Source of the DNA: Streptantibioticus cattleyicolor NRRL 8057 = DSM 46488
GTDB lineage: Bacteria > Actinomycetota > Actinomycetes > Streptomycetales > Streptomycetaceae
Length of the DNA: 64,000 nucleotides
Direction: 5' to 3'
Assembly (NCBI RefSeq): GCF_000240165.1
Contig: NC_017586.1
Location: 5,717,228 to 5,781,227, forward strand
Shown piece by piece: positions 58,623 to 64,000 of the stretch. A program made the position numbers and the translations under genes. The notes beneath the pieces were generated by a model that searched no databases, was not told the DNA's origin, and saw only the letters and a program-made list of their open reading frames with translations. The stretch's first letter is position 1, and each line of letters starts with the position of its first letter.

Positions 58623-60143
<1,521 letters not shown>

Positions 60144-60161
60144 CCGGCCGGCCACCGCGAG

Positions 60162-60202
60162 GGCCCCGCGCGTACCGCTCCGGCGGTGCGCGCGGGGCCT
60201 TT
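60162..60202 (+). terminator. Strong terminator after guaB1
   Basis: A 17-bp stem with one T-G pair (60162-60178 and 60183-60199), a TCCG loop, and TTTGTCTTCT directly after it. One of the two best intrinsic terminators in the window. Confidence 0.85.
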
Positions 60203-60253
60203 GTCTTCTCCATCACCGCAGGTCACCGGCCAAACACCACAAATCGGCCCGGC

Positions 60254-60335
60254 CGCAACGAATCGCCGGGGCGGGGTAACGTTTGCCATGCGGAGGCCGA
60301 GGGCGCGCAACGATTTTTTGCATATGCGCAACGAA
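60254..60335 (+). promoter_or_regulatory. Phased CGCAACGA repeats before the permease (putative Lrp sites)
   Basis: CGCAACGAATCG at 60254-60265, CGCAACGAT at 60306-60314 and CGCAACGAA at 60327-60335, all in one orientation. Start-to-start distances are 52 and 21 bp, close to five and two helical turns. The last two lie on the -35 side and spacer of the candidate promoter. Confidence 0.65.
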
Positions 60336-60345
60336 CCCGCATTAT
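60318..60345 (+). promoter_or_regulatory. Candidate promoter of the permease gene
   Basis: TTGCAT (60318-60323) and CATTAT (60340-60345) are spaced 16 nt in an AT-rich island. CGCAACGA repeats flank the -35 and fill the spacer. Confidence 0.5.
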
Positions 60346-60516
60346 GGGACGAAGCGCCTACCTCGTAAGGTCGTGCGCTGTACGTGGAGCAGCGGGGACC
60401 CCCAGCTCGGCGGTCCCTTGCCTGCGGGTGTGCCTTCTCGGCACGCCGTGACGCCTGGCCGGCCGCCCGCGGGTCGATCCGCGGCCCCGAGCCCGCCGAC
60501 GACGATGGAGCCCCCT

Positions 60517-62013
60517 GTGGTGGAACCCGGCATGACGCCGACCACGCCTGCCCGGCCGGACGGGCCGGTGCCGCCCGCGCCCGCGCGGTCCGGCGGCCTC
60601 GGCGCCGCGATGATGCGCCGCAAGCCCGTCGAGCGCCTGATCGCCGAGGGCGGCCAGGGCGAGGGCGGCCGGCTCAAGCGGTCGCTCGGCATGTGGCAGC
60701 TGACCATGATCAGCATCGGCGCCACCCTGGGCACCGGCATTTTCGTGGTGCTCGGCGAGGCGGTGCCGCTGGCCGGCCCGGCCGTGGTTCTCTCCTTCGT
60801 GGCCGCCGGCCTCACCGCGCTCTTCTCGGCGCTCTCCTACGCGGAGCTGGCCGGCACCATCCCGGTCTCCGGCTCCTCGTACTCCTACGCCTACGCCACC
60901 ATGGGCGAGCTGATCGCCTGGATCTGCGGCTGGTGCCTGGTGCTGGAGTACGCGGTCTCGGTGGCCGCGGTCGCGGTCGGCTGGGGGAAGTACCTCAACG
61001 AACTGCTCAGCGGCACCATCGGGGTCACCATCCCGGGCTGGATGGCCAACCCGCCCGGGGCCGGCGGCGTGATCAACCTCCCGGCGCTGCTGGTGGTGGT
61101 GCTCGCCATGGGCTTCCTGCTCGGCGGTGCCCGGGAGAGCGCCCGGGCCAACACCATCATGGTGCTGGTCAAGGTGGCCTCGCTGATCCTGTTCTGCGCG
61201 GTGGCCTTCACCGGCATCCGGGCCGGCAACTACAAGCCGTTCATGCCGCTGGGCCTGGGCGGGGTGAGCGCGGGCGGCGCCAAGCTGTTCTTCTCCTACA
61301 TCGGCTTCGACGCCGCCTCCACGGCCGGCGAGGAGGCGAAGAACGCCAAGCGCGACATGCCGCGAGCGATCATGCTCTCGCTGTTCGTCGTCACCGCGCT
61401 GTACTGCCTGGTGGCCCTGGTCGCGGTGGGCGCCATGCCGTGGAAGAAGTTCGCCGACGCCGACGCGGCCCTCGCCCAGATCATGAAGGACGTCACCGGG
61501 CAGAGCTTCTGGTCGGTGCTGCTGGCGGCCGGCGCGGTGATCGCCATCGCCAGCGTGGTGCTGACCGTGATGTACGGCCAGACCCGCATCCTGTTCTCGA
61601 TGGCCCGCGACGGCCTGGTGCCCAAGCTCTTCGCCCGGGTGAGCCCGAAGTCCGGGATCCCGGTGGCCAACACCCTGATCGTCTCCGCGTTCTGCGGGGT
61701 GCTCGCCGCCGTGGTGCCGCTGGGCGCCCTCGCGGACGCCACCAGCATCGGAACGCTCTTCGCGTTCGCCCTGGTCAACGCGGCCGTCATCGTGCTGCGC
61801 AAGACCCGGCCGGACATGCCGCGCAGCTTCAAGGTGGCCTTCTCCCCGGTCACCCCGGCCATCGGCTTCGCGCTCTGCCTGCTGCTGATGGGAAGCTTCG
61901 AGCTGATCACCTGGGAGTGCTTCATCGGCTGGATGGCGATCGGGCTCGTGGTGTACTTCACGTACGGCATGCGCCGCTCGCAGCTGGCCCGTGAGGCCCG
62001 GACAGAAAAGTGA
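60517..62013 (+). CDS. APC superfamily amino acid permease
   Basis: A membrane transporter of about 498 residues with roughly 12 membrane helices after a 60-residue Pro/Ala-rich cytoplasmic start. It shows the APC signature in helix 1 (TMISIGATLGTGIFVVLGEAVPLAGPA), the helix 3 region YAYATMGELIAWICGWCLVLEYAVS, and helix 6 KLFFSYIGFDAASTAGEEAKN, as in cationic amino acid transporters. The start is uncertain: GTG 60517 has GGAG upstream; ATG 60505 and ATG 60532 are alternatives. Beside the amidase and monooxygenase genes, lysine or another basic amino acid is the likely substrate. Confidence 0.9.
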   Translation: MVEPGMTPTTPARPDGPVPPAPARSGGLGAAMMRRKPVERLIAEGGQGEGGRLKRSLGMWQLTMISIGATLGTGIFVVLGEAVPLAGPAVVLSFVAAGLTALFSALSYAELAGTIPVSGSSYSYAYATMGELIAWICGWCLVLEYAVSVAAVAVGWGKYLNELLSGTIGVTIPGWMANPPGAGGVINLPALLVVVLAMGFLLGGARESARANTIMVLVKVASLILFCAVAFTGIRAGNYKPFMPLGLGGVSAGGAKLFFSYIGFDAASTAGEEAKNAKRDMPRAIMLSLFVVTALYCLVALVAVGAMPWKKFADADAALAQIMKDVTGQSFWSVLLAAGAVIAIASVVLTVMYGQTRILFSMARDGLVPKLFARVSPKSGIPVANTLIVSAFCGVLAAVVPLGALADATSIGTLFAFALVNAAVIVLRKTRPDMPRSFKVAFSPVTPAIGFALCLLLMGSFELITWECFIGWMAIGLVVYFTYGMRRSQLAREARTEK

Positions 62014-62026
62014 ACCACCGCCTGTA

Positions 62027-62482
62027 ATGCGACTCAACGATCTCGACGAACGCATCGTGCACGCCCTCGCCGAGGACGCCCGCCGCTCCTACTCCGACAT
62101 CGGCGCGGAGGTGGGGCTGTCGGCCCCGGCCGTCAAACGCCGGGTCGACCGGCTGCTGGCCTCCGGCGCCATCACCGGCTTCACCGTCCGGGTGGACCCG
62201 GCCGCGCTGGGGTGGGAGACCGAGGGGTTCGTCGAGATCTACTGCCGTCACAACACCTCGCCCGACGACATCCGCCGCGGCCTGGAGCGCTACCCCGAGG
62301 TGGCCGCCGCCTCCACCGTCACCGGTGAGGCCGACGCCGTCGTGCAGCTCTACGCCTCCGACATGCGCCACTTCGAGCGGGTGCTGGAACGGATCGCCGG
62401 GGAGCCCTTCGTGGAACGCACCAAGTCCGTGCTGGTGCTCTCCCCGCTGCTGCGCCGCTACACCTCCGGCTCGCCCACCTGA
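62027..62482 (+). CDS. Lrp/AsnC family transcriptional regulator
   Basis: A 151-residue feast/famine regulator. Residues 1-60 hold the HTH (RLNDLDERIVHALAEDARRSYSDIGAEVGLSAPAVKRRVDRLL) and residues 70-145 the ligand-binding RAM domain (FVEIYCRHNTSPDDIRRGLERYPEVAAASTVTGEADAVVQLYASD). It sits 13 nt after the permease gene and before the amidase, so it most likely controls this cluster in response to the imported amino acid. Its probable sites are the CGCAACGAATCG repeats. ATG at 62027 lacks a good ribosome binding site, suggesting coupling. Confidence 0.92.
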   Translation: MRLNDLDERIVHALAEDARRSYSDIGAEVGLSAPAVKRRVDRLLASGAITGFTVRVDPAALGWETEGFVEIYCRHNTSPDDIRRGLERYPEVAAASTVTGEADAVVQLYASDMRHFERVLERIAGEPFVERTKSVLVLSPLLRRYTSGSPT

Positions 62483-62494
62483 CGCCACGGGGCG

Positions 62495-62556
62495 CGCAAC
62501 GAATCGCCGGAACGGGCCGTGCGGACGCAACGAATCGGGCCGTGATGCGCAATGGC
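62495..62556 (+). promoter_or_regulatory. Phased CGCAACGAATCG repeats before the amidase gene (putative Lrp sites)
   Basis: Perfect copies at 62495-62506 and 62526-62537, and a partial CGCAATGG at 62548. Spacings are 31 and 22 bp, about three and two helical turns. They lie upstream of the -35 box, the usual place for activator sites. Confidence 0.7.
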
Positions 62557-62562
62557 GGCGCC

Positions 62563-62591
62563 TTGTTGTGGTTGATCGTGAAACGTACCTT
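62563..62591 (+). promoter_or_regulatory. Promoter of the amidase-monooxygenase unit
   Basis: TTGTTG (62563-62568) and TACCTT (62586-62591) are spaced 17 nt; the expected leader is about 40 nt. Confidence 0.6.
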
Positions 62592-62636: not shown

Positions 62637-63452
62637 ATGACGCCGTTGCGCATCGCGCTCCACCAAGGCCCCGCGGGGGTGCCCGGCACCCCCGACGAGA
62701 GCCTCGCCGCGCTCGACGACGCCGTCCGCCGGGCCGCCGCCGGCGGGGCGGACCTCCTGGTGACCGGCGAGATGTACCTCACCGGCTACGCGGTCGGCGA
62801 CGCCCTGCCGCGCCTCGCCGAAGCCGCCGACGGCCCCAGCGCGGCCCGGGTGGCGAAGATCGCCGCCGACCACGGCGTCGCCGTCGTCTACGGCTACCCC
62901 GAACGCGACGGCGGCCGGGTGTACAACTCCGCCCAGCTCATCGGCGCCGACGGCAGCGCGCTCGCCAACTACCGCAAGACACACCTGTTCGGCGACTTCG
63001 AGATGGCCGGCTTCACCCCCGGTGACACCCCGGTCGTCCAGGCCCGCCTCGGTGACCTCACCGTCGGCCTGCTGATCTGCTACGACGTCGAGTTCCCGGA
63101 GAACGTCCGGGCCCACGCGGTGGCCGGCACCGATCTGCTGGCGGTGCCCACCGCGCTGATGCGCCCGTACGAGTTCGTCCCCCACACCCTCGTCCCGGCC
63201 CGCGCGTACGAAAGCCAGCTCTTCGTGGCGTACACCAACCGCTGCGGCGCCGAGGGCGAGTTCCACTTCGCCGGACTGAGCTGCCTGGCCGGGCCCGACG
63301 GTGTCGTGCGGGCGCGCGCCGGGACCGGTGCAGAGCTGGTGCTCGCCGACGCCGACCCGGCGCTGCTCGCCGCCGCCCGCGCGGAGACCCCGTACCTGCG
63401 CGACCGCCGCCCCGGGCTGTACACCGCGCTCACCCGCCCCGTGGCCGGCTGA
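62637..63452 (+). CDS. Nitrilase-superfamily amidase, probably 5-aminopentanamidase (DavA-like)
   Basis: A 271-residue carbon-nitrogen hydrolase with the full catalytic triad: Glu in VTGEMYLTGYAVG, Lys in NYRKTHLFGDF, Cys in GLLICYDVEFPENVRAHA. The sequence resembles Pseudomonas DavA, which hydrolyses 5-aminopentanamide to 5-aminovalerate; shared stretches include RLAEAADGP, VYGYPERD, NYRKTHLFG, and CYDVEFPEN. The next gene codes for the enzyme that would make this amide. ATG at 62637 follows CCGAGG. Confidence 0.88.
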   Translation: MTPLRIALHQGPAGVPGTPDESLAALDDAVRRAAAGGADLLVTGEMYLTGYAVGDALPRLAEAADGPSAARVAKIAADHGVAVVYGYPERDGGRVYNSAQLIGADGSALANYRKTHLFGDFEMAGFTPGDTPVVQARLGDLTVGLLICYDVEFPENVRAHAVAGTDLLAVPTALMRPYEFVPHTLVPARAYESQLFVAYTNRCGAEGEFHFAGLSCLAGPDGVVRARAGTGAELVLADADPALLAAARAETPYLRDRRPGLYTALTRPVAG

Positions 63453-63496: not shown

Positions 63497-64000
63497 ATGA
63501 CCTCCACCGTGCCCACCGCCGTCCACGACGAGCAGCAGGCCGCGGCGGCCAAGCCGATCACCATGTTCGGCCCGGACTTCCCGTACGCCTACGACGACTA
63601 CCTGGCGCACCCGGCCGGGCTCGGTGCCGTCCCGGCGACCGCGCACGGCACCGAGGTGGCGGTGGTCGGCGGCGGGCTCTCCGGCATCGTGGCCGCCTAC
63701 GAGCTGATGAAGATGGGGCTCAAGCCGGTGGTCTACGAGGCCGACCGGATCGGCGGCCGGCTGCGCACGGTGGGCTTCGACGGCTGCGACCCGGAGCTGA
63801 CCGCGGAGATGGGCGCCATGCGCTTCCCGCCGTCCTCCACCGCCTTCCAGCACTACGTGGACCTGGTCGGCCTCGAAACCCGGCCGTTCCCCAACCCGCT
63901 GGCCCCCGACACCCCCTCCACCGTCGTCGACCTCAAGGGCGAGTCGCACTACGCCCGGACCATCGACGACCTGCCGCAGGTCTACCGCGACGTGGCCGAG
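63497..64000 (+). CDS. Flavin monooxygenase, lysine 2-monooxygenase (DavB)-like, 3' truncated by window edge
   Basis: The first 168 codons of a flavin amine-oxidase-fold protein, open to the window end. It begins with about 20 variable residues, then PITMFGPDFPYAYDDYLAHPAGLG, the FAD loop VAVVGGGLSGIVAAYELMKMGL, YEADRIGGRL, and AEMGAMRFPPSSTAFQHYVDLVGL. This order and wording closely resemble Pseudomonas lysine 2-monooxygenase, which oxidatively decarboxylates lysine to 5-aminopentanamide. Tryptophan or arginine 2-monooxygenases are the alternatives. CAGGAG lies 10 nt before the ATG; the gene follows the amidase by 44 nt. Confidence 0.85.
   Translation, partial: MTSTVPTAVHDEQQAAAAKPITMFGPDFPYAYDDYLAHPAGLGAVPATAHGTEVAVVGGGLSGIVAAYELMKMGLKPVVYEADRIGGRLRTVGFDGCDPELTAEMGAMRFPPSSTAFQHYVDLVGLETRPFPNPLAPDTPSTVVDLKGESHYARTIDDLPQVYRDVAE

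Follow-up and report, generated by a model that had tools for sequence, protein, structure and literature searches.

Conserved three-box arrays at two promoters of a probable lysine cluster in Streptantibioticus cattleyicolor are the predicted operator of an Lrp clade

Many proteins of the Lrp family are repressors. In E. coli, Lrp occupies several helically phased sites upstream of ilvIH and similar promoters, where activation proceeds via higher oligomers, and the archaeal family member LysM acts in lysine biosynthesis. In Pseudomonas, davBA pairs a lysine monooxygenase with a nitrilase-type amidase. The nearest studied parallel to the locus described here is Ss-LrpB of Sulfolobus, which switches on permease genes and the catabolic operon next to it through one site or several sites at regular intervals. 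Its own control region has three sites that are filled cooperatively by three dimers, with deformation and wrapping of the DNA, and the consensus of Ss-LrpB sites is the 15-bp palindrome TTGCAAAATTTGCAA (PMC4046817). Sulfolobus LysM and Pyrococcus FL11 are lysine-responsive Lrp proteins, both mentioned in PMC3584215, where Sa-Lrp and FL11 appear as octamers driven by amino acids.

Here we analysed, purely by sequence comparison, a stretch of 64,000 nucleotides from Streptantibioticus cattleyicolor (the window), in which an lrp gene lies beside permease and catabolic genes that are preceded by regularly spaced repeats. The locus resembles that of Ss-LrpB in both the gene neighbours and the regular spacing of the sites. 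However, the boxes do not follow the palindrome of Ss-LrpB; they are CGCAACGAATCG-like with a CGCAAYR core and a weak dyad, point in one direction and keep fixed distances of 31/22 or 30/21 bp. Helically phased sites upstream of a promoter are shared with E. coli Lrp, whose consensus is A+T-rich and degenerate and serves a global regulon, whereas the array described here is G+C-rich, rigid and confined to local targets. LysM and FL11 share with the present proposal lysine as an Lrp effector, but they are archaeal, LysM belongs to lysine biosynthesis, and the regulator of this locus falls outside the NCBIfam LysM equivalog (NF040947), which is its best model at 68 of the 180 bits required. The enzyme pair is the same as in Pseudomonas davBA and stands here alongside a permease-lrp operon; no link between an Lrp and davBA was found in the open literature.

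Phasing of Lrp sites is a familiar arrangement. What appears to be new within the open literature is the CGCAA grammar, together with its tie to a single Lrp clade and its recurrence before catabolic genes of different kinds. A preliminary description of this DNA knew of no account of the motif, and we likewise found none in the open papers searched.

A probable lysine uptake and breakdown cluster

The genes are arranged in the order guaB1, permease, lrp, amidase and flavin amine oxidase, with a GMP reductase-like product for guaB1 and the last gene running past the window (Table 1). Since lrp starts 13 bp past the permease stop, the two genes probably form one operon. Both domains of the regulator score above cut-off (PF13404 with 58 bits, PF01037 with 55 bits), giving it the helix-turn-helix and the RAM ligand-binding domain of the Lrp/AsnC family.

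The closest solved relative of the amine oxidase is 3WE0, with 820 bits over 551 residues, compared to 211 bits for the next solved relative, tryptophan 2-monooxygenase. 3WE0 was deposited as an L-amino acid oxidase/monooxygenase, and we take it to be the Pseudomonas lysine enzyme with lysine as its substrate. The amine oxidase thus has a lysine oxidase/monooxygenase as its closest solved relative, the feature by which we class it as DavB-like. Due to this resemblance, the cluster probably serves lysine uptake and breakdown; the amidase, because it is paired with the amine oxidase, would be a 5-aminovaleramide amidase, and the pathway would probably lead from lysine via 5-aminovaleramide to 5-aminovalerate. 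At some of the loci compared (L035, L041, L055 and L057), the amidase and amine oxidase genes are separated from the permease-lrp operon by more than 5 kb or sit on a different contig.

Table 1. Genes, boxes and inferred promoter elements of the locus, in window coordinates.
Feature	Position	Strand	Basis or remark
Amino acid permease	60517..62013	+	AA_permease_2, cationic amino acid transporter type; TIGR00909 just under cut-off
Lrp/AsnC regulator	62027..62482	+	HTH_AsnC-type and AsnC_trans_reg; recognition helix LSAPAVKRRVDRL
Carbon-nitrogen hydrolase, probable 5-aminovaleramide amidase (DavA-like)	62637..63452	+	CN_hydrolase
Flavin amine oxidase, 566 aa, lysine oxidase/monooxygenase-like (DavB-like)	63497..64000 (start only in window)	+	3WE0
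Permease promoter, extra upstream box CGCAACGAATCGCCG (perfect 12-mer)	60254..60268	+	-73 from last box
Permease promoter, first box, degenerate, GGTAACG	60275..60281	+	position -51, CGCAA-like in 84/96 permease promoters
Permease promoter, middle box CGCAACGATTTTTTG	60306..60320	+	offset -21, present in 95/96
Permease promoter, last box CGCAACGAACCCGCA, ends at -35 start	60327..60341	+	96 aligned promoters
Permease promoter, inferred -35, TTATGG	60342..60347	+	TTA conserved 15 bp after box start, 96 aligned promoters
Permease promoter, inferred -10, TAAGGT, 18-bp spacer	60366..60371	+	TAgg.T conserved, 96 promoters
Amidase promoter, box A CGCAACGAATCGCCG	62495..62509	+	conserved array
Amidase promoter, box B CGCAACGAATCGGGC	62526..62540	+	conserved array, +31 from A
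Amidase promoter, box C CGCAATGGCGGCGCC, abuts -35 start	62548..62562	+	conserved array, +53 from A
Amidase promoter, inferred -35, TTGTTG	62563..62568	+	TTGT nearly invariant, 105 promoters
Amidase promoter, inferred -10, TACCTT	62586..62591	+	TACCGT/TACCTT conserved; spacer 17 bp here, 18 in most relatives

A rigid array at both promoters

Perfect copies of the 12-mer CGCAACGAATCG start at 60254, 62495 and 62526. Shorter copies are found at 60306 (CGCAACGATTTT) and 60327 (CGCAACGAACCC), and the copy at 62548 (CGCAATGG) is partial relative to the 12-mer. These coordinates, as well as the spacings of 52, 21, 31 and 22 bp, had been given in the preliminary description and were exact on recheck. 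The 8,095,515-base genome holds three copies of the 12-mer, every one within the promoter gaps of this cluster, the two places to which the repeats had been said to be confined, and no copy of its reversed control. A search for the three-box pattern with gaps of 30-31 and 21-22 bp returns this locus alone in the source genome. When two mismatches are allowed, the 12-mer gives 533 genome-wide matches versus 344 for the control; such a search is uninformative genome-wide, and only spacing-based patterns discriminate.

Orthologous loci were compared using 60 loci taken by place and 80 named loci, nearly all of the latter from Streptomyces, which were oriented. Box spacing was counted upstream of the amidase (106 regions) and of the permease (108 regions) and proved rigid, although the counts are not independent because the genomes are related. 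Over the orthologous regions of both promoters, 540 sites are forward and 12 reverse, matching the single orientation noted at the source locus. Spacings among CGCAAYR-like sites were counted without presetting any value; the 106 distinct amidase regions gave 31 bp (101), 22 bp (99) and 53 bp (98), with six others in total, and the 108 permease regions gave mainly 21 bp (121), 51 bp (110) and 30 bp (89). The sites are promoter-bound and lie near whole helical turns, as had been proposed, with 31 and 22 bp corresponding to about three and two turns.

More specifically, the fixed amidase-upstream element in relatives consists of gCGCAACGAATCGCCG as box A, CGCAACGRATCG as box B at +31 and CGCAAYG as box C at +53, followed by CTTGTC at +67 and TACCGT at +92. 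Within 105 distinct amidase promoters, preselected for scoring 19 or more of 21 against the array, the GCAA of box C is invariant; the copy at 62548, correctly placed in the preliminary description, therefore occupies a full array position and is not a partial one. Scored against the fixed 0/31/53 array, 110 of the 119 amidase loci with lrp in the locus reach 19-21 of 21, and the background reaches at most 17 among 10,506 windows. One locus is missed by the score through a misplaced gene start alone, two have a diverged middle box, and in one family (Lrp 61-63% identical) two arrays are clear and six loci are degenerate. As a whole, the repeats are genuine and well outside what chance would give.

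At the permease, 96 distinct promoters carry boxes at -51, -21 and 0, with TTAC at +15 and TAGGNT at +39, giving a 30/21 bp layout; an extra box at -72/-73 occurs in 28 of them. Separately from the array, the leader of the permease transcript (60378-60425) is strongly conserved (GTACGTGGAGTGGCGGGGACCGCCTGCTCGGCGGTCCCC in relatives) and can fold into a hairpin around an invariant GCTCGG, with the outer pairs partly kept. It could be a leader RNA or encode a short leader peptide.

The boxes themselves are weakly palindromic, and classical Lrp sites are more so, a point that counts against the assignment to an Lrp. Symmetry is confined to the outer CG...CG, to which the permease middle box adds CGCAA...T.CG, and a strict palindrome was therefore dropped as a defining feature.

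Mode of regulation and identity of the regulator

Both promoters share one geometry, in which the start of the last box is followed after 15 bp by the -35, a spacer of 17-18 bp and the -10. The preliminary description had placed the amidase sites above the -35, as for activation, and had let the permease sites overlap their promoter. The first placement holds, as the last amidase box ends where the -35 begins. The second does not, since 15 bp separate the start of the last permease box (60327) from the inferred -35 (60342), and the opposite modes give way to a geometry common to both promoters. This common geometry argues that the two promoters are regulated alike, most likely by activation; because at all targets the boxes stay entirely upstream and stop at the -35, activation by polymerase contact is favoured. 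Both promoters most likely carry activator-type sites.

From the array, its spacing, geometry and conservation, the co-loss described below and the shared recognition helix, all of which can be read directly in the sequences, we infer the following mechanism. Each box of about 15 bp would hold one Lrp dimer, and the three boxes, 31 + 22 bp apart at the amidase and 30 + 21 bp apart at the permease, would face the same side of the helix, which would let one octamer hold all three while bending or wrapping the DNA. As the last box ends at the -35, the final dimer would be placed to touch RNA polymerase, and Lrp would thereby most likely activate the permease-lrp and the amidase-lysine monooxygenase operons in the presence of abundant lysine or one of its close products. 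Lysine itself or a product is the probable ligand; this choice and the direction of regulation rest on position and gene content. We give a probability of roughly 85% to the proposal as a whole, namely that the repeats are the operator of the adjacent Lrp (62027-62482), with a dimer per box, wrapping and lysine-linked activation.

With the same operator and the same Lrp, both promoters might instead be repressed, lysine relieving the repression. A large Lrp assembly on a last box that abuts the -35 could block the polymerase, and repression is common in the family. However, the boxes lie wholly upstream of the -35, none covering the -35/-10 or the start, and the centre of box C falls at about -44 relative to the inferred start, a position typical of activators. 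The co-loss fits either mode. We regard repression as unlikely, and activation by the adjacent Lrp as the preferred reading.

It is considerably less probable that another transcription factor binds the array and that the lrp gene lies next to it by coincidence. Being neighbours is in itself weak evidence, given that permease and lrp probably form one operon anyway, but the array and the regulator are associated in more ways than by position. Of 249 source-family genomes, roughly 150 have an lrp ortholog (80-93% identity), which co-occurs with the amine oxidase. One genome (G070) keeps guaB1 (90%), amidase (68%) and amine oxidase (87%) and has no lrp ortholog, and its locus contains no CGCAAYG in 13.7 kb; this single case of co-loss of regulator and operator argues against another factor. 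Seven amidase loci without lrp score 12-14, equal to background. Furthermore, relatives of the amine oxidase in other families (about 62-76% identity) with no lrp nearby have no array, and the array therefore does not simply follow the enzyme.

Searches that were blind to Lrp gave a consistent picture. Among the 249 source-family genomes, the array skeleton was found in 143, nearly always at this locus and once or twice per genome; four off-locus matches that were opened each adjoin another Lrp, 56-64% identical and of the same clade. The class-wide search covered 395 genomes. Of its matches, 30 were fetched, the first among those listed rather than a random draw and none from the source family; 22 of these adjoin an Lrp with the helix AVKRRVD, in other families and before different target genes. 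This recognition helix is common to one Lrp clade. The other examined Lrp paralogs of the source genome have different recognition helices, and no array was found beside them. The Lrp-blind class search and the co-loss are the strongest independent points. The earlier tie to an Lrp/AsnC protein thus stands through co-occurrence, co-loss and a common recognition helix, and has lost only the opposite promoter modes attached to it. Of the findings named beforehand as counting against it, neither a scattered 12-mer nor a lack of conservation before orthologous clusters was seen.

A transcribed element (RNA structure, terminator or repetitive palindrome) or a leftover of the lrp or guaB1 gene end is a reading to which we attach a very low probability. 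One array does lie directly past the lrp stop codon in the source genome, but where a gene intervenes between lrp and amidase, the array keeps to about 140 bp before the amidase and does not stay with lrp. It also has one orientation and no inverted arms, is followed by a conserved -35 and -10, and Rfam returned no match over 60100-60700, the permease leader region included. Chance repeats, although a 12-mer allowed two mismatches is no rarity in the window, are refuted by the rigid spacing conserved in the 106 amidase and 108 permease upstream regions, by the restriction of the 12-mer to this locus, by array scores above those of all 10,506 background windows and by the recovery of the locus in the skeleton search, leaving a negligible probability.

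Related arrays in other actinobacteria

The array-linked Lrps form a clade with support of 99/96, from which the four other source-genome Lrp paralogs put in the tree are excluded. We define an AVKRR-type class by the helix pattern LSxxAVKRR(V/I/L)D(R/K)(L/M) and by an array of three CGCAA boxes that precedes a neighbouring gene, with intervals of 30-31 and 21-22 bp; the source Lrp carries this helix and the source locus these boxes. In 20 of 25 foreign arrays, a TANNNT -10 follows at +38/39 from the start of the last box. In our reading, the array is genuine and conserved and represents the operator grammar of a clade of actinobacterial Lrps, whose binding to it is predicted.

The genes downstream of the class arrays, where read, are dimethylargininases (NCBIfam DiMArgaseDdahMtb), and in one genome the dimethylargininase is followed by a class III aminotransferase. 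At loci L273-L298, from several actinobacterial families and one of them probably mycobacterial, the array and an AVKRRVD-type Lrp stand before dimethylargininase genes. In the gene order of M. tuberculosis, an Rv2324-like regulator is located next to ddaH. The arrangement at L273-L298 suggests that these arrays are the operator of Rv2324-like regulators. These mycobacterial-type regulators thus resemble the source locus in array and Lrp type, but their target is dimethylargininase instead of lysine breakdown.

Within the source family, three other genera (loci L255, L082, L083 and L257) combine a 64-67% identical Lrp and the same array with a pyridoxal-dependent decarboxylase-like gene, which takes the place of the lysine genes behind the array and was called by domain in one genus and by similar sequence in the other two. 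At L301 (1450-1558), an array precedes a reading frame resembling dimethylargininase, and no Lrp is encoded within 1.5 kb. At L258 (6275-6330), the array comes after a related Lrp in a genome that lacks the lysine-type ortholog of lrp, and the next open frame is WD40-type-like.

We consider it likely, at a lower confidence than the reading of the source locus, that one actinobacterial Lrp clade with the helix AVKRRVD keeps a rigid three-box grammar (about 31 + 22 bp, ending at the -35) that serves lysine monooxygenase/amidase and permease, dimethylargininase/ornithine aminotransferase and pyridoxal-dependent decarboxylase genes. Regulator and promoter would then evolve together as a unit that can be reused, with changes falling mainly on the ligand pocket.

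These findings provide a ready-made operator code for an Lrp group across actinobacteria, probably including mycobacteria, whose sites seem to be undescribed in the open literature. The neighbouring gene predicts the target and the likely ligand class of each clade member. Furthermore, with the boxes mapped and their distance to the -35 fixed, the contact between an Lrp assembly and RNA polymerase can be tested directly, and the locus probably offers a lysine-responsive promoter pair for work in Streptomyces.
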